This document shows positions 6,049 through 26,433 of a stretch of DNA of 40,583 nucleotides, piece after piece. The notes under the pieces were generated by a model, which was not told the DNA's origin, searched no databases, and worked only from the letters and a program-made list of their open reading frames with translations. The stretch's first letter is position 1; every line of letters starts with the position of its first letter. This stretch comes from Balneolaceae bacterium. GTDB taxonomy: Bacteria > Bacteroidota > Rhodothermia > Balneolales > Balneolaceae. Location of the stretch: contig JAEPQH010000025.1 of assembly GCA_017640605.1 (NCBI GenBank), forward strand, positions 1 to 40,583. Direction: 5' to 3'. The translations under genes were made by a program, and so were the position numbers.

Positions 6049-7551
6049 ATGAGCGACAAACCCCGCGAGTATTGTGGAGTATTTGGAGTATTTGATCACC
6101 CTGAAGCCGCATTGCTAACCTATTACGGCTTACACGCCCTTCAACACCGAGGGCAAGAATCTGCCGGCATTGTTACCTCTTATTTCGATGAAGAGAAAAA
6201 CCGCAACGTAATGCCAACGTACAAAGACTTTGGCCTGGTACTAAGCGTGTTTGACAAGCCGAAGATCTTCAAGAAAATATTGAAAGGGGATTCCGCTATC
6301 GGTCACAACCGATATTCAACTTCAGGATCGTCGAAAAATCCGGCCAATATTCAGCCATTCAGAGTGCATTATCGCACGGGGAATATTGCAATCGGGCACA
6401 ACGGGAATCTCTCGAACGCGAAACAAATCAGAAAGCGATTTAGAGAAGAAGGAGTATTGTTCCAAAGCACTTCTGATACGGAATTGATTTTACACCTAAT
6501 CGCGCAGAGCAAAGAGGAAGATCAGTTGCAACAAATTATGGATGCACTTTCACAAATTGAAGGAGCTTACTGTTTGGTGATGCTTACCGATGACAAATTG
6601 ATTGCCGTTCGCGATCCTAATGGTTTTAGACCACTTGCTCTGGGTAAAGTTGATGGTAAATTTTGTGTAGCCAGCGAAACGTGCGCATTTGATATTATCG
6701 ATGCGGAATATATCCGCGATATTGAGCCGGGCGAGGTTATTGTAATCGATCGGGAAGCCTCAGAAAACGATTCGCCAAAATCGTATTACCTCGAAGCTAA
6801 AACAGGAACAGGCACTAGCCAATGTATTTTTGAGTACGTCTATTTTTCACGCCCAGATAGCATGGTATTTGGCGAAATGGTGGATAAGATCAGACGAAAT
6901 TTGGGAAAAGCACTTGCAAAAGAGCATCCTATCAGTGAAGTGGTAAAGCATTCCTCATCCGATAAAAAGCCTGTGGTAATCTCTGTTCCCGATTCCAGCA
7001 ATACAGCCGCACTTGGTTATGCAAGTGAAAATCAGAAGCAGGGACAAGATTGTAAATACGATATTGGACTTATCAGAAATCATTATGTAGGTCGGACTTT
7101 TATATCACCGGGACAGAAATCCCGTGAGCAAAAAGTTCGTACTAAGTTTAATCCTGTTCGGGGCGTGATCGAAGGGAGATCGGTAATCATTGTAGACGAT
7201 TCCATTGTTCGTGGTACAACCTCTCAACTTTTGGTGGATATGATTAGAGCTTGTAACCCCAGCGAGATTCACTTTTTAGTGAGTTCACCTCCAATTATTA
7301 GTCCATGTTACTATGGGATGGATTTTCCAAGCCCAGAGGAGCTAATTGCAAATCGATTCGACCGTGATATTGAGAAAATGGCAAAAGAAATTGGCGTAGA
7401 TAGTTTGCGCTATTTGTCGCCTGATGGGCTGGTAAATGCGGTTAAGGCTGCAAACCCTTCTGGCTACGATTATTGCACTGCGTGTTTTACATCAGAATAT
7501 CCGGTTCCTGTAAATTTTGGTGTAGAAAAAGAAGAAAACGAGTTGGTTTAA
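6049..7551 (+). CDS. purF: Amidophosphoribosyltransferase
   Basis: A 500-residue PurF, first committed step of purine synthesis: PRPP plus glutamine gives phosphoribosylamine. The N terminus MSDKPREYCGVFGV places the nucleophile at Cys9, so an 8-residue propeptide is probably removed, as in the Bacillus type. The glutaminase motifs HRGQESAG and GHNRYST are present. The PRPP loop is VIIVDDSIVRGTT (about residues 379-391). Cys259, Cys420, Cys476 and Cys479 sit where the 4Fe-4S ligands of the Bacillus-type enzyme are expected, so this should be an oxygen-sensitive iron-sulfur form. It overlaps engB by one base (TAATG). purA and a RdgB-type purine NTPase lie elsewhere in the window but not in this operon. 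Confidence 0.96.
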   Translation: MSDKPREYCGVFGVFDHPEAALLTYYGLHALQHRGQESAGIVTSYFDEEKNRNVMPTYKDFGLVLSVFDKPKIFKKILKGDSAIGHNRYSTSGSSKNPANIQPFRVHYRTGNIAIGHNGNLSNAKQIRKRFREEGVLFQSTSDTELILHLIAQSKEEDQLQQIMDALSQIEGAYCLVMLTDDKLIAVRDPNGFRPLALGKVDGKFCVASETCAFDIIDAEYIRDIEPGEVIVIDREASENDSPKSYYLEAKTGTGTSQCIFEYVYFSRPDSMVFGEMVDKIRRNLGKALAKEHPISEVVKHSSSDKKPVVISVPDSSNTAALGYASENQKQGQDCKYDIGLIRNHYVGRTFISPGQKSREQKVRTKFNPVRGVIEGRSVIIVDDSIVRGTTSQLLVDMIRACNPSEIHFLVSSPPIISPCYYGMDFPSPEELIANRFDRDIEKMAKEIGVDSLRYLSPDGLVNAVKAANPSGYDYCTACFTSEYPVPVNFGVEKEENELV

Positions 7552-8141
7552 TGTACAACGGCCCTGCCAAATTTATTACTAGTGCCCCTCGCTTAGAAGA
7601 TTGTCCACCCGCTACATTACCGGAAGTTTGTTTTGCCGGTAGATCAAATGTTGGGAAGTCATCGCTGATTAATGCACTGACCAATAAAAAGCGATTGGCC
7701 CGCACATCAAACGTGCCGGGTAAAACCCAGCAAATGAACTATTATAACATTACTGATACCTGTTATTTTGTTGATTTACCGGGTTACGGATACGCAAAAG
7801 TGCCCATGAAAGAACGAGAGCGATGGGGAAGAAACATCCGCGAATATCTCGAAAACCGAGAGACCCTACGGTTAATTTTGCATGTAATTGATGCCCGACA
7901 TTCCCCAACCGAACTAGATCAGGATTTTTTTTATTGGATGGCATCGAACCAAATGCCCTTTTGCGTATTAATGTCGAAAGCAGATAAACTTTCGAACAAC
8001 AAAAGAGCTAAATCAAAGGCCACATTGAAAAAAGTATTAGCCGAAATGAATATCGAAGTACCCATATTGTTGTATTCATCCGACAGTAAGCTTGGTATTG
8101 AAGCCGTTCAAAAGCTAATTGAAGAATTTGTTATCACATAA
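7551..8141 (+). CDS. engB: Ribosome-biogenesis GTPase EngB (YihA/YsxC)
   Basis: A 196-residue GTPase of the TrmE-Era-EngA-YihA class, needed for late assembly of the large ribosomal subunit. G1 is GRSNVGKSS, G3 is DLPGYGYAK and G4 is SKADKL (Ser in place of the usual Thr); TSNVPGKTQ is the switch I region. The frame is open further upstream inside purF, but the ATG at 7551 overlaps the purF stop as TAATG and gives the normal N terminus, so translation is probably coupled to purF. Confidence 0.95.
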   Translation: MYNGPAKFITSAPRLEDCPPATLPEVCFAGRSNVGKSSLINALTNKKRLARTSNVPGKTQQMNYYNITDTCYFVDLPGYGYAKVPMKERERWGRNIREYLENRETLRLILHVIDARHSPTELDQDFFYWMASNQMPFCVLMSKADKLSNNKRAKSKATLKKVLAEMNIEVPILLYSSDSKLGIEAVQKLIEEFVIT

Positions 8142-8175
8142 TTACTAATCACAAAACTCACACTCACTCACACTC

Positions 8176-9765
8176 ATGTCTTTTAAAGTTTTATTGTTAG
8201 ATAGCGTTGATCCGGTTTGTGCCGAGGTCTTCAAAAAACGTGGAATCGAAGCCGATCAACCTGGAAAGTTAACCGAAGAAGAACTTTTCGCCCGCATCGG
8301 TGAATACGATGGAATGGTAGTACGAAGTGCTACTAAAGTAACTGCAGAGCTATTATCGCATGCAAAAAAAATGAAAGTTGTGGGCAGGGCCGGTGTGGGA
8401 GTCGATAATGTAGACATCCCATCTGCAACGGCTAAAGGCGTGTTGGTTATGAACACCCCAGATGGGAATACGATATCTACCGCAGAGCATACCTGTGGAT
8501 TAATTATCGCGCTATCGCGAAATATTCCTAAATCGGTTGCTAAGGTTAAAAGTGGTGGCTGGGATCGCAAAGCCTACATGGGAACCGAAGTGCACGGCAA
8601 AACTTTAGGCATTGTGGGCTTAGGTAAAATTGGTACCGAAGTTGCAAAACGCATGAAAGCTTTTGGAATGGAAGTACAGGCGTATGACCCATTCTCGACT
8701 GAAGAACATGCCAAAGAAGTAGGTGTGAAGTTAGTAGAATTGGATGAGCTACTTGGCACTTCCGATTACATGAGTGTTCACACTCCGCTTACTGAAAAAA
8801 CGAAAGGATTGGTTTCTCTCAAGAATGCCGATAAGCTGAAAAAAGGAATTCGTTTGGTAAATTGTGCGCGAGGTGGAATTTATACTGAAACAGATCTACC
8901 GGCATTAATCGATCAGGGAATTGTGGCAGAAGTGGCACTTGATGTATATAGCACCGAACCGCCCACTGAAGAGATTTACGAAGTGCTGAAGCACGAAGAG
9001 ATTATTTGTACACCACATCTGGGAGCCTCTACCGAAGAAGCGCAGGAAAAAGTAGCCGAGCAAATTGCCGAGCAAATGGCCGATGCACTCGAAAACAAGA
9101 ATTATAAAGGTAGCTTGAATGGGAAATCCATTTCATTGCTTACTAATCAAGAGGTTCAGCCCTATTTGCAGCTGGCTGAAAAGCTGGGTCAGCTTGCAGT
9201 GCAAATTAGCCCGGATCATGCGAATAGTTTCGAGTTTGAATATGCGGGAGACAGTGCCAAATTTGCCGATGTACTAACTGATGGAATTATTAAGGGGATG
9301 CTCTCTCAATACGTAGATGAATCCGTGAACCTGATTAATGCCCGTGTTTATGCTGATCAACGTGGATTTACGATCAAAGAGACAACCACCAGCAAGGCGA
9401 AGCTGTACAACGATTTAGTAACCATTCGTTTGCCAAAAGGTGCGGAATACAGTTCTATTTCGGCAGTGGTATTTGGTGATGGAGATTACCGAATTGTTGA
9501 AATCGATAATTATGGAATCGAACTCCGCTTAGAAGGTGATATGATTCTGTATCAAAACGAAGATAAACCGGGAATGCTTGCCTCTGTAAGTGGTGCTCTC
9601 GCCGAGATGAATATCAATATTGGTGGATTAAGTCTTGGCCGAAGTGGCAAAGGATCGCGTGCAATTACAGCTTTTTCTGTTGATAAACATCTGGACGAAA
9701 AAGAGCTTGCTAAAGTATCGGCTCTCGAAGGCATTGAGCATCTCCGCTACGTTTCTCTAACATAA
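8176..9765 (+). CDS. serA: D-3-phosphoglycerate dehydrogenase
   Basis: A 529-residue long-form SerA: oxidises 3-phosphoglycerate with NAD+ as the first step of serine synthesis. The N-terminal substrate domain contains VVGRAGVGVDNVD; the NAD-binding loop is LGIVGLGKIGTEVA. The catalytic triad is Arg232 (NCARGG), Glu261 (STEPP) and His281 (TPHLGAS). An intervening domain (about 320-450) and a C-terminal ACT domain (from about 455, EDKPGMLASVSGALAEMNINIG) follow, so serine feedback is possible. It lies 34 bases after engB and may be in the purF-engB transcript. Confidence 0.95.
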   Translation: MSFKVLLLDSVDPVCAEVFKKRGIEADQPGKLTEEELFARIGEYDGMVVRSATKVTAELLSHAKKMKVVGRAGVGVDNVDIPSATAKGVLVMNTPDGNTISTAEHTCGLIIALSRNIPKSVAKVKSGGWDRKAYMGTEVHGKTLGIVGLGKIGTEVAKRMKAFGMEVQAYDPFSTEEHAKEVGVKLVELDELLGTSDYMSVHTPLTEKTKGLVSLKNADKLKKGIRLVNCARGGIYTETDLPALIDQGIVAEVALDVYSTEPPTEEIYEVLKHEEIICTPHLGASTEEAQEKVAEQIAEQMADALENKNYKGSLNGKSISLLTNQEVQPYLQLAEKLGQLAVQISPDHANSFEFEYAGDSAKFADVLTDGIIKGMLSQYVDESVNLINARVYADQRGFTIKETTTSKAKLYNDLVTIRLPKGAEYSSISAVVFGDGDYRIVEIDNYGIELRLEGDMILYQNEDKPGMLASVSGALAEMNINIGGLSLGRSGKGSRAITAFSVDKHLDEKELAKVSALEGIEHLRYVSLT

Positions 9766-15766: not shown

Positions 15767-16246
15767 ATGCCTTCCAATCATATACATATCGTTGAACAAT
15801 TCTATGCCTCGCTGAATAACAAAGATTTTAAAACGCTAAAATCGTTGTACCATCCGAAAGCAGAATATAATGATGAGCTTTTTAGCTTAAATTATCGGGA
15901 GATACTTGCCCTCTGGTATAGTAGCATGAAACCGGATATGGATCTAAAAGTGAAGGTGGATTCCATCGAACAACATCAAGATTTCGTGGTAACTAATTGG
16001 ACCATTTCATACACCATTACTTCGATAAATAAAAGAATTACATTGGATGAAATTGGACGATTTGAGTTCGAAGATGGCTTAATTGTTCGTCATACCGATG
16101 CATACAGTTTTTACAGTTGGTGTACTCAGGCATTCGGTGTGGCTGGTATGTTAGCTTCATGGAGTAATTGGCTCCGAAATAAAGTGCGGAATCAGGCATA
16201 CAGTAGTATAAATGCAAATATATATGTTGCAAATTCAATGGAATAG
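15767..16246 (+). CDS. NTF2/SnoaL-like protein, paralogue 1
   Basis: A 159-residue NTF2-like (cystatin-like cone) protein. The start HIVEQFYASLNNKDFKTLKSLYHPKAEYNDELF is the usual SnoaL opening, with a DGLIVRHTDAYSF strand later. The C-terminal ~45 residues (TQAFGVAGMLASWSNWLRNKV) are conserved in the next gene, with which it is clearly paralogous. No certain catalytic residues can be named; members of this fold are isomerases, lyases or binding proteins. It is the first gene of a five-gene same-strand cluster with two aminotransferases and a sulfotransferase-like protein. Confidence 0.8.
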   Translation: MPSNHIHIVEQFYASLNNKDFKTLKSLYHPKAEYNDELFSLNYREILALWYSSMKPDMDLKVKVDSIEQHQDFVVTNWTISYTITSINKRITLDEIGRFEFEDGLIVRHTDAYSFYSWCTQAFGVAGMLASWSNWLRNKVRNQAYSSINANIYVANSME

Positions 16247-16251
16247 GTGCT

Positions 16252-16761
16252 ATGAAAAACGAACAGGCAAAACAATCGGCGTTAATTCATACGTTGTACT
16301 CTTCTTTTGCGCAGCGCGACTATAAAACCATGGCAGAATGTTATCACCCGGAAGCACGATTTAAAGACGAAGTTTTTGAACTTAAAGGAAATGAAATAGC
16401 TGCTATGTGGCACATGTTATGTGTTCGGGGAAAAGATCTAAACATCGAATATGATCAGGTAGAAGTTTCTGCCAATACCGGATCAGCAAATTGGGTGGCA
16501 ACCTACACATTTAGCCAAACCGGCAGAAAGGTAAAAAACGAAATTGCGGCGTCTTTTATCTTCAAAGATGGATTAATTCTTAATCATCAGGATGATTTCG
16601 ATTTCTGGAGATGGAGCACTCAAGCACTTGGTTTTGTTGGATTGGTTTTAGGATGGAGTGATATTTTGAGAAATAAAGTGAGTCAACAAGCAATGCAATC
16701 GCTCCGGGCATTTATTCGCAAACATCCCGAATACGAACAGAACAATCTTCTGGGAGATTAG
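16252..16761 (+). CDS. NTF2/SnoaL-like protein, paralogue 2
   Basis: A 169-residue NTF2-like protein that starts five bases after its paralogue ends. It shares LYSSFAQRDYKTMAECYHPEARF and the C-terminal block TQALGFVGLVLGWSDILRNKV with the first copy, so the pair arose by tandem duplication and has since diverged. The FDFWRWSTQ motif near residue 120 is aromatic-rich and may line the cone. It lies eight bases before the class I aminotransferase and is probably co-transcribed. Function is unknown. Confidence 0.8.
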   Translation: MKNEQAKQSALIHTLYSSFAQRDYKTMAECYHPEARFKDEVFELKGNEIAAMWHMLCVRGKDLNIEYDQVEVSANTGSANWVATYTFSQTGRKVKNEIAASFIFKDGLILNHQDDFDFWRWSTQALGFVGLVLGWSDILRNKVSQQAMQSLRAFIRKHPEYEQNNLLGD

Positions 16762-16769
16762 ATACAGCC

Positions 16770-18074
16770 ATGCGACAACCATTGCTTAATGAAGGAGCCA
16801 ACGAACTCAGCTATGAAATACGCGAGATCGTAAAAAAAGCGCGCATTTTAGAAAAATATGGAGTTGAAATCTCGTGGGAAAATATTGGTGATCCCATTCA
16901 AAAAAATGCCCACATCCCGGAATGGATTAAAGACATTGTGGTGGATCTAACCAGAAATGATAAATCCTATGGTTATTGCGATTCTAAAGGTGTGCTTGCC
17001 ACCAGAGAGTTTTTAGCAGAGCGCACCAATGAACAGGGCGGGGTACAAATTACGGTTGACGATATCCTTTTTTTTAACGGATTGGGAGATGCCATTGCAA
17101 CGCTTTATCAATATCTGAGACCTACGGCGCGGGTTATCGGTCCCTCTCCGGCATATTCTACACATTCATCGGCTGAAGCTGCTCACGCCGGAAATTCTCC
17201 TCTTACTTATCGCTTGGATCCAGAAAATCATTGGTATCCGGATATGGAAGAGCTTCGCAATAAAGTGAAATACAATCCGAATATTGTGGCTATTCTGTTG
17301 ATCAATCCGGATAACCCAACCGGAATGGTATACCCTAAAGAGATTTTGGAAGAAATCGTAGAATTAGCTCGGGAGTTTAAACTGTTTTTGATTTCTGACG
17401 AGATCTACAATCAGATTACTTATAACGGTGCCATAGCATATTCTCTGGCGGAAGTGATTGGCGATGTACCGGGAATTGCGATGAAGGGAATCTCCAAAGA
17501 ATTGCCCTGGCCGGGTTCGCGCTGTGGATGGATCGAATATTACAATAGAACCGCTGATCCCGATTTTAACCAGCTTTGTAAAGTTCTGGATGATGCAAAA
17601 ATGATTGAAGTTTGCTCAACCACACTGCCGCAAATGGCGATTCCCAAAATCTTGGGCGATCCTCGATATGAAACCTATCGTAGTGATTTAAATGCAAAAA
17701 CGGGATGGCGAAGTCGCTTCATTTCCGAAACGCTTCAAGATATTCCCGAACTTACTTTTAATCCTACATTCGGGGCGTTTTATAACACTATTATTTTTAA
17801 AGAGGGAGTGCTAAATCATCGGCAGTCGCTTCCAATCGAAAATCAGGAAGCCAAACAAAAGGTAGAAGAATGGGTGGATGGCGTTTCACTCGATTTCCGA
17901 TTTGTATACTATTTACTAGCCTCAACAGGGATTTGTGTAGTTCCTATTTCATCATTCTGCTCCGATCTACTCGGGTTCCGAATTACCCTACTCGAAGAAG
18001 ATGAAGAACTTCTGAAAAAAACGTTCACCACCCTCCGCGATGCCATTCGAACTTATTTGGATTCAACTAAATGA
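16770..18074 (+). CDS. Class I/II PLP-dependent aminotransferase
   Basis: A 434-residue fold-type I aminotransferase. Recognisable motifs are SYGYCDSKGVLATREFL near the N terminus, LINPDNPTGMVYPKE, LISDEIYNQITYNG, and the PLP lysine Lys243 in GISKELPWPGSRCGW. The C-terminal FRITLLEEDEE supplies the substrate-carboxylate Arg. It resembles AlaA/aspartate-type enzymes but carries an insertion near residues 345-370. It moves an amino group between an amino acid and a 2-oxo acid; the substrate is unknown. It is followed after 80 bases by a class IV aminotransferase, so two unrelated aminotransferase folds lie side by side. Confidence 0.9.
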   Translation: MRQPLLNEGANELSYEIREIVKKARILEKYGVEISWENIGDPIQKNAHIPEWIKDIVVDLTRNDKSYGYCDSKGVLATREFLAERTNEQGGVQITVDDILFFNGLGDAIATLYQYLRPTARVIGPSPAYSTHSSAEAAHAGNSPLTYRLDPENHWYPDMEELRNKVKYNPNIVAILLINPDNPTGMVYPKEILEEIVELAREFKLFLISDEIYNQITYNGAIAYSLAEVIGDVPGIAMKGISKELPWPGSRCGWIEYYNRTADPDFNQLCKVLDDAKMIEVCSTTLPQMAIPKILGDPRYETYRSDLNAKTGWRSRFISETLQDIPELTFNPTFGAFYNTIIFKEGVLNHRQSLPIENQEAKQKVEEWVDGVSLDFRFVYYLLASTGICVVPISSFCSDLLGFRITLLEEDEELLKKTFTTLRDAIRTYLDSTK

Positions 18075-18075
18075 A

Positions 18076-18152
18076 AAATTCAAAATGAAAGATGAAAAAT
18101 AGTGTACTATAAGTGGTTCAATTTTGAATCTTAAATTTTTCATTTTGAATTT
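18076..18152. repeat. Perfect 15-base inverted repeat between the two aminotransferase genes
   Basis: AAATTCAAAATGAAA (18076-18090) and TTTCATTTTGAATTT (18138-18152) are exact reverse complements, and the loop repeats variants of the same words. It fills nearly the whole 80-base gap. Confidence 0.7.
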
Positions 18153-18154
18153 CT

Positions 18155-19078
18155 ATGGTACACGGTACGCATAATGCATTAGATGACCCGCGGAATGAGA
18201 ACGTTTTGATCTCAATAAACGGAGAGCTATTTCCCCGACATGAAGCAAAAATTTCGGTATTTGATTCGGGATATTTGGTGGGTGATGGAGTTTGGGAAGG
18301 TTTGAGGCTGCATCATGGTATACTGGTTTTTTGGGATGATCACATGGATCGGTTGTATCAGGGAGCCAAAACAATTGGCATGGAGATTGGGATGGATCGA
18401 GATCAAATAAAATCTCAAGTATCAAAAGTGTTGGATGCGAATGATATGACAGACGGTGTGCATGTTCGCATCATGCTAACCCGCGGAATCAAAAAAACGC
18501 CAAGTCAGGATCCGCGGCTCACCATTTCCGGGCCAAATATGGTAATCATAGCCGAGCATAAAAAAGCCGATCCTGAAACACGAAATAAAGGCATCACCTT
18601 GTTTACAAGCACCATTCGTCGAGGCTCGCCCGATTATTTAGATCCAAGATTGAATTGCCATTCTAAACTCCACGAAGTGCAGGCCCTTATTCAAGCCATA
18701 GAAGCCGGCGCTGATGAAGCACTGATGTTGGATGTGAACGGATTTGTGAGCACCTGTAACGCCACCAACTTTTTTATGGTGAAAGATGGCGAAGTGTGGA
18801 CCTCCACCGGGCAGTATTGCATGAATGGAATTACACGGGCCAAAGTGATTGAAGTCTGCGAGCAGAACAACATTCCTTGTCACCAAAAAAACTTCTCGCT
18901 GTTCGATGTGTATGGTGCCGATGAAGCCTTCGTTACCGGAAGTTTCGGAGGATTAACTCCCGTAACCAAAATAGATGGAAGGCAGATTTCCAAACAAGTC
19001 CCCGGCACAATCACCGGCTTACTCCAACAACTCTACGAAGGGAAAATTGAAGCAGCTTCGCTGAATGATAAATTTTAA
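18155..19078 (+). CDS. Class IV aminotransferase (branched-chain/D-amino-acid type)
   Basis: A 307-residue fold-type IV PLP enzyme related to IlvE, DAAT and aminodeoxychorismate lyase. Motifs include ISVFDSGYLVGDGVWEGLR near the N terminus, the AGADEALMLDVNGFVSTCNATNFFMV region (the ExxxxNxF PLP-binding part) and GITRAKVIEVC. The only lysine near the expected Schiff-base position is Lys171 in DPRLNCHSKLHEV, which is offset from the IKSLNYL lysine of IlvE. A sulfotransferase-like gene follows 84 bases later. An amino-acid substrate is likely; assigning ilvE would go beyond the evidence. Confidence 0.87.
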   Translation: MVHGTHNALDDPRNENVLISINGELFPRHEAKISVFDSGYLVGDGVWEGLRLHHGILVFWDDHMDRLYQGAKTIGMEIGMDRDQIKSQVSKVLDANDMTDGVHVRIMLTRGIKKTPSQDPRLTISGPNMVIIAEHKKADPETRNKGITLFTSTIRRGSPDYLDPRLNCHSKLHEVQALIQAIEAGADEALMLDVNGFVSTCNATNFFMVKDGEVWTSTGQYCMNGITRAKVIEVCEQNNIPCHQKNFSLFDVYGADEAFVTGSFGGLTPVTKIDGRQISKQVPGTITGLLQQLYEGKIEAASLNDKF

Positions 19079-19088
19079 ATGCTAAGTG

Positions 19089-19156
19089 TTAAATGGTAGC
19101 ATCAGAATTAATTTCCAAATTCAAAATTTAGCTTTTAAAACTTAACATTTAACATT
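19089..19156. repeat. AT-rich inverted word repeat before the sulfotransferase-like gene
   Basis: TGTTAAATG near 19089 is the reverse complement of CATTTAACA near 19147, with partial repeats of TTAAC, AAATT and TTTAG between. It fills the 84-base gap in the same way as the repeat at 18076. Confidence 0.5.
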
Positions 19157-19162
19157 CCATCT

Positions 19163-19882
19163 ATGGTTAAACGAATTTGTGTGTGGTCGGGGCCACGAAA
19201 TATTTCCACAGCGTTGATGTATTCCTTTGCACAGCGCAAAGATACTACCGTAGTAGATGAGCCACTGTATGCGCACTATCTAACTTCAACTCACGCCGAC
19301 GAATATCACCCCGGTGCAGAAGAAGTAATCGACGATCAGGAAAACGACGGACAAAAAGTGATCGATGAAGTGATTTTTGGCGATTATGACACACCGGTAG
19401 TGTTCTTCAAACACATGACGCATCACCTGGTGGATCTAGACTGGAGTTTCATGAAAGACACCATCAACGTGATTTTAACCCGCGAGCCGAAGGAAATGCT
19501 CACGTCCTTTATTAAACAAATTCCGAACCCAACGTTAAGAGATACCGGCTATCCCCAGCATCTAGAGTTGATGGAATATTTGAAAAGTATCGGGCAAACT
19601 CCGCTGGTAATCGATTCCAAAGAAGTGTTGATCAATCCCCGAAAAAAGCTCTCTGAATTTTGTGAATACGTAGGAATTCCCTTCGACGAAGCCATGCTAA
19701 GCTGGCAAGCCGGCGCCCGACCTGAAGACGGAGTGTGGGCAAAGCACTGGTATCATAATGTGCACAATTCTATCGGCTTTCAACCTCATCAACCCAAGGA
19801 CGAGGTAGTTCCTGAACACATTAGAGAACTCTATAATCGGTGTTTAGAGTACTATAATCGACTAGTTTCAAGGAAAGATTAG
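19163..19882 (+). CDS. Sulfotransferase-like P-loop protein linked to the class IV aminotransferase
   Basis: A 239-residue protein with an N-terminal phosphate-binding loop WSGPRNISTALMYSF (about 8-22), the sulfotransferase-type 5'-PSB loop rather than a Walker A. TVVDEPLYAHYL and NVILTREPKEMLTSF match the region around the 3'-phosphate-binding site of PAPS-dependent sulfotransferases. No signal peptide. Proteins of this type are often encoded beside class IV aminotransferases, and as I recall plant branched-chain-aminotransferase-like proteins carry both domains in one chain. It is last in the five-gene cluster. Sulfation of the aminotransferase product is possible but not shown. Confidence 0.8.
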   Translation: MVKRICVWSGPRNISTALMYSFAQRKDTTVVDEPLYAHYLTSTHADEYHPGAEEVIDDQENDGQKVIDEVIFGDYDTPVVFFKHMTHHLVDLDWSFMKDTINVILTREPKEMLTSFIKQIPNPTLRDTGYPQHLELMEYLKSIGQTPLVIDSKEVLINPRKKLSEFCEYVGIPFDEAMLSWQAGARPEDGVWAKHWYHNVHNSIGFQPHQPKDEVVPEHIRELYNRCLEYYNRLVSRKD

Positions 19883-20000
19883 AAAAGTTGGATTGGTATT
19901 GATTCACTGCTGGCAATGCTGTTTTTTGTTGTGCGACCGATTACACTTTTTAACAAGGTGAAAAATTCGGGTAACAATAAATAAAAAAACAGGGTATTTG

Positions 20001-21215
20001 ATGAAGTACACAGCAATAAAACGATCAGCTCTTTTAATGCTACTGGTATCAGTTGTAGCCTTTGGATGTAAGAACGGAACAGAACTTACAGCGCCGGGCT
20101 CTGAAGATGCGGTTGAAGTAACAGCAGTAGAGGGTCAATACATCGTTGTATTAGATCAGGTAAAAGGTAAATTTAAATTGGGTGAACCTCAGCAGATAGA
20201 AGGAATTCGACAGGCTGTAATTGAAGCCAATAATCTTGTGCCTGAGCGTATAGTTAAAAGATATAACCATGCATTGGCAGGCTTTACAGCAACGCTAGAC
20301 CCAGATGAGTTAGTAAAAATCCAAAACGATCCGTTTGTTAAGTATGTAGAACAAGATCGAATAGTTCGGTTTGCTCCTCCATGCGGAACCCCGAAAGGCG
20401 GTCCATGTGATGGCGATGGTGGCGGTGGAGGAGGAGAAGATCCGACTCAGGAAACACCATACGGTATTACACGGGTTAATGGCGGCGCTACTTATACAGG
20501 TAGCAACGTAGCTTGGGTACTGGATTCAGGAATTGATTTAGATCACCCTGATTTAAATGTAGATGCATCCCGAGGATTTAATGCCTTTACTTCTGGTAAA
20601 GATGGACGTAGCCTAGATGATGGCGACGGTCATGGAACTCACGTAGCCGGAACCATCGCTGCAATCGATAACAATCAGGGAGTAATTGGGGTAGCAGCCG
20701 GTGCTACTGTAATTCCAGTAAAAGTTTTAGATAGCCGTGGAAGCGGGTCTTATTCTGGTGTAATTGCCGGTGTGGATCATGTTGCTGCTAATGGCTCTTC
20801 CGGTGATGTTGCAAATATGAGTCTTGGTGGACCTCCATCACAGGCTCTTGATGATGCCATTGTTGCTGCGGCTCAAAATGGAATCAGATTTACATTAGCT
20901 GCCGGTAACGAAAGCACTGATGCAAACAACTCATCTCCTGCACGAGTGAATGGTAACAACATCTATACCATTTCTGCTGTGAACAGTTCGGATGTATTTG
21001 CGAGTTTCTCTAACTATGGAAACCCTCCTGTTGATTATGCCGCTCCCGGTGTGTCTATAAAATCAACCTGGAAAAATGGCGGATACAATACCATTAGTGG
21101 TACTTCAATGGCGGCACCTCATGCAGCCGGTGTACTTTTACTAGGTAATCCATCTTCTACAAGTAATGCCATCGGCGACCCTGATGGAAACGCTGATCCG
21201 ATTATCGAGAACTGA
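20001..21215 (+). CDS. Lipoprotein subtilase (S8 family serine protease)
   Basis: A 404-residue subtilisin-like protease. The signal peptide MKYTAIKRSALLMLLVSVVAFGC ends in a lipobox with Cys23, so it should be lipid-anchored. Residues about 45-123 form an inhibitor I9 propeptide (GQYIVVLDQV ... FVKYVEQD). A Gly-rich, Cys-containing linker follows, then the S8 domain with catalytic Asp175 (VLDSGIDLDHPDL), His211 (GDGHGTHVAGT) and Ser369 (GTSMAAPHAAG). A TTG three bases upstream is in frame, but the ATG at 20001 is preferred. A strong terminator follows, so it is monocistronic. Confidence 0.93.
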   Translation: MKYTAIKRSALLMLLVSVVAFGCKNGTELTAPGSEDAVEVTAVEGQYIVVLDQVKGKFKLGEPQQIEGIRQAVIEANNLVPERIVKRYNHALAGFTATLDPDELVKIQNDPFVKYVEQDRIVRFAPPCGTPKGGPCDGDGGGGGGEDPTQETPYGITRVNGGATYTGSNVAWVLDSGIDLDHPDLNVDASRGFNAFTSGKDGRSLDDGDGHGTHVAGTIAAIDNNQGVIGVAAGATVIPVKVLDSRGSGSYSGVIAGVDHVAANGSSGDVANMSLGGPPSQALDDAIVAAAQNGIRFTLAAGNESTDANNSSPARVNGNNIYTISAVNSSDVFASFSNYGNPPVDYAAPGVSIKSTWKNGGYNTISGTSMAAPHAAGVLLLGNPSSTSNAIGDPDGNADPIIEN

Positions 21216-24769: not shown

Positions 24770-25135
24770 ATGGCACAAAAAATAAGTTATGAATTAGCTT
24801 CCAATCAGCAAATACGAACAGATTTAGGAGAGAAACTGGCAAGTCAACGATTAGCACAGAATATCACCCAAGAGCAACTTGCCGAAAGATCTGGAGTGAG
24901 TTTGCGAACTCTAAAACGTCTGGAAAAAGGAGAGAATAGTTCTATAGAAACGCTGATCAAAGTGATGAGCGGGCTTCAGCTTTTGGCAAACCTGGAACAG
25001 CTTATTCCTGCGCCAACAGTTCGCCCAATGGAGCGCATCCAACAAAAAGGAAAAGAACGTCAACGCGCTCGCCCCATCGTTCAGGAAAAAGATGCAGATA
25101 CATCAGCAACATGGTCGTGGGGTGATGAGCAATGA
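24770..25135 (+). CDS. hipB: HipB-like antitoxin (XRE helix-turn-helix)
   Basis: A 121-residue protein with an XRE/Cro helix-turn-helix at about 17-72 (LGEKLASQRLAQNITQEQLAERSGVSLRTLKRLEKGE) and a Gln/Arg-rich, probably disordered tail ending WSWGDEQ. It overlaps the following HipA-type kinase by four bases (ATGA), the normal order. It should bind the operon's promoter and hold the kinase inactive. Confidence 0.88.
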   Translation: MAQKISYELASNQQIRTDLGEKLASQRLAQNITQEQLAERSGVSLRTLKRLEKGENSSIETLIKVMSGLQLLANLEQLIPAPTVRPMERIQQKGKERQRARPIVQEKDADTSATWSWGDEQ

Positions 25136-26433
25136 GCACTGATGCACTCATAAAACTGTGGGGCACCCCAATTGGAGCGGTAAGCTGGGTTGAGGATCGA
25201 GGCGTAGGAGTATTTCAATATGCCAAAGAATTTGTACGTAGCAACATTCAGGTTTCGCCTATACATATGCCACTACGTGAAGCTCCTTATGAGTTTAGCG
25301 CACTAAGTAAAAATAGCTTCAATGGGTTGCCAGGATTGGTTTCCGATTCTTTGCCCGATCATTATGGAAACGCATTAATTGATGCATGGCTAGCTACACA
25401 GGGTAGGTCTCCACAAAGTTTCAATCCCGTTGAGCGGCTTTGTTATATCGGGAAAAGAGGTATGGGAGCGTTAGAGTTTGAGCCAACGTTAAGTGGTCGG
25501 GAAAAGAAAAGTGCCAGTATCGAAATGGAGCAGTTAGTTGAACTTGCCAATAGCGTATTACAACGAAGAAGTGAGCTGGAGGGAGCACTTTCAGGAAAAG
25601 ATGATCAAAAAAACATGGAGGAAATTCTTAAAGTTGGAACATCGGCAGGCGGTGCGCGGGCAAAGGCTGTGATCGCATGGAATCGGGCAACCAATGAGTT
25701 TAGATCAGGGCAGGTTGAGCAAGAAAATAATTTTGAACATTGGTTGATAAAACTAGATGGCGTTGATGGAAATGGCGATCATGGCGTAGCCGATCCATTG
25801 GGCTTTGGAAAAGTGGAGTACGCGTACTCTTTGATGGCGAAAAAAGCAGGAATTGAAATGACGGAGTGCAGACTTCATAAAGAAGGAGGAAGAAGTCATT
25901 TTATGACCAAACGCTTCGATCGAACAGATAATGGCGACAAAATGCACATGCAAAGTTTGGCGGCACTGGCACATTTCGATTATCAACAACCACAAAGTTA
26001 CAGTTATGAACAATGCATTCAGGTAAAGCGGAAATTAGGATTAAGCGCAGTTGAATTGGCTCAACAGTTCAGACGTACGGTGTTTAATGTAATTGCAAGA
26101 AATCAGGATGATCATGTGAAAAACATAGCTTTTCTAATGGATCGAAAAGGGAAATGGAAATTATCACCGGCATTCGATATTACCTATGCGTGGAACCCGG
26201 AAGGGCTGTGGACAAAGAATCATCAGATGAGCATTAACGGAAAATGGAATGATTTTGAACTAGCAGACCTCATTGCGTTAGGTAGATATTCGGATTTAAA
26301 ACCTCCTAAAATAAAAGAGATTATAGAAGAGGTTAAAGAGGCGGTTTCTAATTGGATGAGTTTTGCAGAAGCGGGAGATGTAAATGAAAAGTTTGCGAAA
26401 AAAATAAAGCGAGCGCACCGTTTATATATTTGA
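25132..26433 (+). CDS. hipA: HipA-like serine/threonine kinase toxin
   Basis: A full-length 433-residue HipA with the N-subdomain (about 1-110, including LPGLVSDSLPDHYGNALID) fused to the kinase core. The Gly-rich loop is VGTSAGGARAK (residues 168-178), where Ser171 is at the likely autophosphorylation position and Ala replaces the common Pro. The catalytic loop is ARNQDDHVKN with Asp327, and the metal-binding Asp349 is in SPAFDITYAW. HipA phosphorylates glutamyl-tRNA synthetase in E. coli and induces dormancy; the target here is not known. Paired with the HTH antitoxin gene. The residues needed for activity are present. Confidence 0.9.
   Translation: MSTDALIKLWGTPIGAVSWVEDRGVGVFQYAKEFVRSNIQVSPIHMPLREAPYEFSALSKNSFNGLPGLVSDSLPDHYGNALIDAWLATQGRSPQSFNPVERLCYIGKRGMGALEFEPTLSGREKKSASIEMEQLVELANSVLQRRSELEGALSGKDDQKNMEEILKVGTSAGGARAKAVIAWNRATNEFRSGQVEQENNFEHWLIKLDGVDGNGDHGVADPLGFGKVEYAYSLMAKKAGIEMTECRLHKEGGRSHFMTKRFDRTDNGDKMHMQSLAALAHFDYQQPQSYSYEQCIQVKRKLGLSAVELAQQFRRTVFNVIARNQDDHVKNIAFLMDRKGKWKLSPAFDITYAWNPEGLWTKNHQMSINGKWNDFELADLIALGRYSDLKPPKIKEIIEEVKEAVSNWMSFAEAGDVNEKFAKKIKRAHRLYI

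Follow-up and report, generated by a model that had tools for sequence, protein, structure and literature searches.

A conserved bacterial gene pair of a lysine-less class IV aminotransferase homolog and a predicted PAPS-type sulfotransferase

Do five closely spaced genes in a Balneolaceae genome encode one pathway, or is part of the cluster the functional unit, and what might that part do? The genes occupy positions 15767–19882 on the + strand of a 40,583-nt stretch (contig JAEPQH010000025.1, positions 1–40,583, assembly GCA_017640605.1), the whole of which we call the window, and are separated by gaps of 5, 8, 80, and 84 bases. The original prediction read them as a single cluster of two NTF2-like proteins, class I and class IV aminotransferases, and a sulfotransferase-like protein that could make or modify an amino-sulfonated metabolite. 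Our coordinates and Pfam families agree with this gene layout; as one unit, however, the cluster falls apart, and beyond Balneolaceae only its last two genes are conserved together. These encode a fold-type IV (class IV) aminotransferase homolog that lacks the catalytic lysine (AT4) and a Sulfotransfer_5 (PF19798) protein of the 3'-phosphoadenosine 5'-phosphosulfate (PAPS) sulfotransferase type (ST). The pair is the conserved core of the locus and, in our reading, its functional unit.

A two-gene core

AT4 (18155–19078, + strand, 307 aa) matches Aminotran_4 (PF01063) with an E-value of 2.3e-45, and ST (19163–19882, + strand, 239 aa) matches PF19798 with an E-value of 2e-43. A scan of an AT4 alignment against 84,980 species genomes returned at least 511 relatives, the best 80 of which were analyzed. 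ST lies immediately 3' of AT4 on the same strand in 76 of these 80 loci, at a median spacing of 27 bases and in at least eight phyla; the neighborhood survey proposed with the original prediction thus bears out the class IV/sulfotransferase pair. Four loci have no adjoining ST: two are cut by a contig end and two carry other genes at that place, one in a genome with ST on another contig and one in a genome without ST. AT4 identity is 69–92% across the 80 other loci and ST identity ~49–86% across 76 of them, and because the pair is kept to this extent the five genes are not chance open reading frames (ORFs). The original prediction compared the pair with plant branched-chain-aminotransferase-like proteins in which the two domains are fused; AT4 and ST are separate genes in all bacterial pairs examined.

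The loci span Balneolota, Bacteroidota, Chloroflexota, Gemmatimonadota, Calditrichota, Neomarinimicrobiota, Latescibacterota, Verrucomicrobiota, and one metagenome-assembled genome (MAG) labeled 'Proteobacteria'. Phyla were taken from record titles, single ones of which may be wrong because many loci are MAGs. NTF2-like genes occur near AT4 in 8/80 loci and the class I gene in 6/80, all of them in Balneolota. None of the 80 loci revealed a third neighbor common to several phyla, and the neighbors that are shared reflect ordinary within-genus synteny. We rejected the five genes as a conserved unit since the first three do not track AT4 and ST beyond Balneolaceae; the NTF2-like and class I genes are local additions to the pair in some members of this family.

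The two proteins also co-occur at the level of whole genomes. Among 98 genomes of the Balneolota group around the window, full-length ST and lysine-less AT4 (E < 1e-60) are found in the same 31. Of 249 Pseudomonadota genomes, 24 encode a PF19798 protein and 27 a lysine-less AT4, namely all of the 24 plus three more (G504, G521, and G543). Fisher p values of 3e-26 for the Balneolota group and 2e-30 for Pseudomonadota overstate independence because relatedness was not corrected for. In six alphaproteobacteria ST has no adjoining AT4, yet a lysine-less AT4 is encoded elsewhere in the genome. A 67-residue ST fragment (E 1.2e-17) lies in a Balneolaceae genome without lysine-less AT4 (G020, C2:970162–970365), as would fit decay of both genes together.

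A class IV fold without its lysine

AT4 has the profile and the fold of class IV enzymes (PF01063, 155.6 bits against a cut-off of 28.5; fold Z up to 29.3). In Escherichia coli IlvE the Schiff-base lysine is K160 and the pyridine N1 contact is E/D194 (PMC9309667). AT4 retains the phosphate cup and has neither of these two residues: the lysine position is Asn167 (codon AAT, 18653–18655, + strand) and the position of the N1-contacting Glu is Thr200 (18752–18754, + strand). All 80 relatives likewise carry Asn at position 167; in a sister branch the residue is His. In a wider class IV alignment, sorted by the residue at this position into 121 N-type, 15 H-type, and 19 K-type sequences, Thr or Ser replaces the N1-contacting residue in 121/121 N-type proteins, and Glu is present in 15/15 H-type and 19/19 K-type proteins. 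Every full-length class IV neighbor paired with ST is of the Asn or His type; one locus (L115) has a lysine-bearing class IV gene near ST, but an Asn-type partner is there too.

The remainder of the pocket is strongly conserved. Arg66 of the phosphate cup (HxxR; 18350–18352, + strand) is found in 121/121 N-type, 15/15 H-type, and 19/19 K-type sequences, and G225, T227, and R228 of the phosphate-binding GITR motif (18827–18838, + strand) are kept in all three types. H103, R105, K113, and N202 mark both lysine-less types. Lys113 (18491–18493, + strand) is a signature of the lysine-less family: 118 of the 121 N-type proteins and all 15 H-type proteins have K here, the three remaining N-type proteins have R, and K is not the commonest residue at this position in any K-type sequences. 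Within a YIR/HVR motif, R105 lines up with the Arg that contacts the carboxylate in branched-chain enzymes. Loss of the lysine followed by extreme conservation (N in 80/80, most of the pocket invariant) argues for a different reaction or role of AT4.

The original prediction treated this protein as a class IV aminotransferase, a claim that the missing lysine and, in the N-type branch, the missing cofactor-ring Glu speak against. AT4 falls below the curated cut-offs of all listed branched-chain, D-amino-acid, and aminodeoxychorismate (ADC)-lyase models (PRK08320, the best, 241.7/363; ilvE_I, 194.8/245.55; D_amino_aminoT, 162.5/277.45). With the lysine missing and these cut-offs unmatched, we rejected a conventional branched-chain or D-amino-acid aminotransferase. 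An ordinary lysine-bearing IlvE is encoded elsewhere in the same genome. Because its catalytic lysine is replaced, AT4 is unlikely to be an ordinary transaminase, and 'aminotransferase' probably names the wrong activity, judging from the residues at these positions.

The closest solved relative is an aminotransferase-like protein from Variovorax paradoxus (7z79), which shares the fold (Z 29.3) and 160 of 292 aligned positions (55%) with AT4. N174 of 7z79 corresponds to Asn167, both proteins have Thr/Ser at the N1-Glu position, and AT4 belongs to the same family. The deposited titles in the Protein Data Bank (PDB) are 'aminotransferase-like protein from Variovorax paradoxus' for 7z79 and 'mutant N174K' for 9j32. 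A literature search that reached few subscription journals returned no published function for 7z79. The nearest lysine-bearing solved relatives, the archaeal-type branched-chain aminotransferases 5mqz, 5cm0, and 5e25, share the fold, the phosphate cup, and GITR but carry Lys at the position of the AT4 Asn or His and Glu at that of the N-type Thr.

In phylogenetic trees a single branch (support 100/96) separates all lysine-less proteins from the rest, and N-type and H-type proteins each form a single group. If the root lies among lysine-bearing proteins, the simplest history is one loss of the lysine followed by divergence. Independent losses in the two types were rejected because the trees favor one branch, with rooting by assumption. 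Placement of the H-type with the archaeal branched-chain enzymes was rejected at a borderline level (p = 0.048, approximately unbiased test).

The sulfotransferase partner

ST exceeds the PF19798 cut-off by a wide margin (148.9 bits against 23.2). Its AlphaFold model has a mean predicted local distance difference test (pLDDT) score of 93.7, and all 50 fold matches listed for it are sulfotransferases, the best with a Z of 15.5 over 219 residues; an olefin-synthase domain, tyrosylprotein sulfotransferases, and CurM tie at the top. Conservation of motifs was counted over 132 aligned ST proteins. The predicted 5'-phosphosulfate-binding loop GPRNIST (19190–19210, + strand; R12, S15, T16) has R12 and T16 in 132/132, and the putative 3'-phosphate-binding pair R107 and S115 (R+8=S; 19481–19507, + strand) is present in 132/132. 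Glu33 (19259–19261, + strand), the candidate catalytic base, is likewise found in 132/132. On the acceptor side, the motif K83-x-x-x-H87-H88 (19409–19426, + strand) has K83 in 132/132 and H88 in 129/132. These motifs and the modeled fold support a PAPS-type P-loop protein, the second point on which the original prediction had called for a check. The genome encodes an adenosine 5'-phosphosulfate (APS) kinase, and PAPS can therefore be made.

Relatives of ST away from AT4 show how else PF19798 may be used. A Dolichospermum plasmid protein keeps R12, T16, E33, K83, H88, R107, and S115. Unlike ST, this gene and Streptomyces relatives adjoin cysC and other tailoring or non-ribosomal peptide synthetase (NRPS) genes, and no AT4 is nearby. 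The Dolichospermum gene is probably SxtN, to judge from its neighbors; SxtN enzymes are PAPS-dependent N-sulfotransferases (PMC7290730). On a Streptomyces plasmid (L240, 1478–6720) a PF19798-like sulfotransferase lies beside cysC, cysD, and NRPS genes, a likely case of natural-product tailoring by this family. Divergent PF19798 paralogs in two alphaproteobacteria (L176 and L177) adjoin an Asp/Glu-racemase-like gene, with no AT4 nearby; Ser replaces Asn13 in both, and L176 also adjoins an aldehyde dehydrogenase gene. PF19798 is listed in PMC11625862, which does no more than name it, and the literature search described above yielded nothing usable on the function of PF19798 or on the plant fusion, and no paper linking PF19798 with lysine-less class IV proteins.

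What the pair may do

AT4 proteins on plasmids hint at the substrate. We read twelve proteobacterial examples and confirmed the lysine-less motif in eleven, the Dinoroseobacter protein (L241) being unconfirmed. Most lie in operons for polar amino-acid ATP-binding cassette (ABC) transporters that include GntR or XRE regulators, and no ST was found within the twelve stretches. The closest plasmid relatives of 7z79 (61–68% identity) have this setting too, unlike AT4 of the window: amino-acid ABC transporter operons with no ST nearby. Recurrent companions are chloride-channel-type proteins, genes resembling pyrroline-5-carboxylate reductase (P5CR) or ornithine cyclodeaminase, and MmgE/PrpD. In Mameliella the gene after AT4 is annotated betC, choline-sulfatase, and in Yoonia another betC lies ~4 kb downstream of AT4. 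The uptake-operon setting points to an amino or imino acid as the AT4 substrate. AT4 occurs there without a neighboring ST and would therefore be more than a subunit of ST, acting on a substrate in its own right.

We propose that ST sulfonates a small metabolite and that AT4 converts the same metabolite in a non-canonical way, the other three genes being optional; we give this reading a probability of roughly 0.45. With PAPS as donor, ST would transfer the sulfuryl group to a small metabolite that bears a carboxylate as well as an amine or hydroxyl group. AT4 would bind this metabolite and convert it without an internal aldimine, holding pyridoxamine 5'-phosphate (PMP) or pyridoxal 5'-phosphate (PLP) non-covalently or using no cofactor. 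Optional, lineage-specific steps would fall to the class I aminotransferase and the NTF2-like proteins encoded upstream. The product may be an amino-sulfonated metabolite.

The chemistry that we favor for AT4 is an elimination or rearrangement with the ST-made sulfate as leaving group. Elimination is preferred because of two analogies and because sulfatase and halide-channel genes neighbor AT4 on plasmids. The first analogy is with the sulfotransferase domains of CurM and olefin synthase (OLS), which are among the nearest solved folds of ST (4gbm and 4gox; Z 14.7 and 15.5) and its best profile matches. These domains sulfonate a beta-hydroxyl so that sulfate can leave (PMC3903477); they differ in being polyketide synthase domains coupled to a thioesterase, whereas ST stands alone as a 239-aa protein and is coupled to AT4. 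The second is with ColD/E1, aminotransferase homologs whose catalytic Lys is changed to His and which act as PMP-dependent 3-dehydratases, catalyzing elimination and not transamination (PMC8987622). The Lys-to-His change is a precedent for the H-type, but AT4 of the window has Asn. The scaffolds differ as well, ColD/E1 being relatives of fold-type I aminotransferases with nucleotide-sugar substrates and AT4 being of fold-type IV. In its most specific version, the proposal has the PAPS sulfotransferase activating a substrate that resembles an amino acid, and a fold-type IV homolog without the lysine removing or replacing the sulfate; this would be chemistry undescribed for this fold, and we regard it as unlikely.

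Several points weigh against our proposal. The elimination step is an argument by analogy, the sequence similarity of ST to CurM and OLS is weak (E 9e-5 and 3e-4), and fold Z scores tie with those of tyrosylprotein sulfotransferases. The predicted model of AT4 is weak near the active site (pLDDT < 50 at residues 156–170). G504, G521, and G543 carry AT4 with no ST detected, and genome G106 has AT4 and lacks ST. The substrate of the uptake-operon subfamily may differ from that of the ST-paired subfamily.

The alternative that survives best makes AT4 a catalytically dead pseudoenzyme, a scaffold, substrate-presenting or allosteric subunit of ST, which would be the sole chemist. The N-type's lack of both the Schiff-base Lys and the N1-Glu fits this role, as does the near-perfect pairing of AT4 with ST. 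However, the uptake operons on several plasmids and genomes G504 and G521 have AT4 without a neighboring ST, pointing to a function apart from ST. The N1-Glu is retained in the H-type, and H103, R105, and K113 are fixed in both types, as expected of an active site. We consider a dead subunit rather unlikely.

AT4 could instead remain a transaminase that uses another Schiff-base lysine, Lys113 or Lys171. Lys113 has the conservation of a family signature (118/121 N-type, 15/15 H-type), and the phosphate cup is kept; but Lys113 is Arg in three proteins, Lys171 is Arg in six N-type and Leu in all H-type sequences, and the N1-contacting Glu is gone from the N-type. The depositors of 7z79 made N174K, suggesting that they regarded the wild type as lacking the lysine. 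A substitute lysine thus appears improbable to us.

Nor is it at all likely that the two proteins share a substrate class and nothing more, with ST making a sulfonated compound for storage or export and AT4 acting, uncoupled, elsewhere in the metabolism of the same amino acid. Unlinked AT4 and ST genes in alphaproteobacteria and AT4 in uptake operons without a neighboring ST would be explained, but unlinked AT4 is still present in every ST-bearing genome sampled, and adjacency recurs across distant phyla. Least probable is the five-gene pathway to an amino-sulfonated metabolite, with a conventional class IV aminotransferase, the sulfotransferase, a second aminotransferase, and NTF2-like partners: the tight same-strand layout and the intact class I Lys and ST motifs are in its favor, but AT4 has no catalytic lysine, and outside Balneolaceae the neighborhood lacks the other three genes.

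Both protein families have catalog entries already, and a structure has been deposited for one AT4. The link to a PAPS sulfotransferase is a first concrete handle on the lysine-less class IV family, and in hundreds of genomes AT4 proteins are named 'aminotransferase class IV' or 'branched-chain aminotransferase', probably wrongly as to activity.

The other genes of the window

The cluster opens with two SnoaL_2/NTF2-like proteins, A (15767–16246, + strand, 159 aa) and B (16252–16761, + strand, 169 aa), with Pfam E-values of 3.5e-14 and 1.6e-12. They are tandem paralogs with 36% identity. In another locus (L219), an apparent fusion of a SnoaL/NTF2-like domain with an alpha/beta-hydrolase (7194–8450) adjoins a lysine-less AT4 and echoes the tandem paralogs of the window. 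The third gene (16770–18074, + strand, 434 aa; Aminotran_1_2, 6e-33) encodes a class I PLP aminotransferase of the PRK06855 family, scoring 687.6 bits against a cut-off of 443 for the equivalog model NF005334. Its candidate Schiff-base lysine, Lys243, is present in the motif GISK..PGSR (17496–17498, + strand).

The intergenic stretches 18072–18154 and 19076–19162 are AT-rich and resemble imperfect inverted repeats (e.g., AAAATTCAAAATGAAAGATGAAAAAT ... ATTTTTCATTTTGAATTT); they may be small repeat elements or hairpins. Two scans gave no sign of phage or viral carriage. By eye, the gene directly 3' of ST on the same strand (19998–21215) reads as a subtilisin-like (S8) serine protease with a lipoprotein-like signal. 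Farther on, at 24770–26433, an XRE-type regulator (121 aa) is followed by a HipA-like protein (433 aa), an arrangement that, again by eye, resembles a HipBA-type toxin-antitoxin pair.

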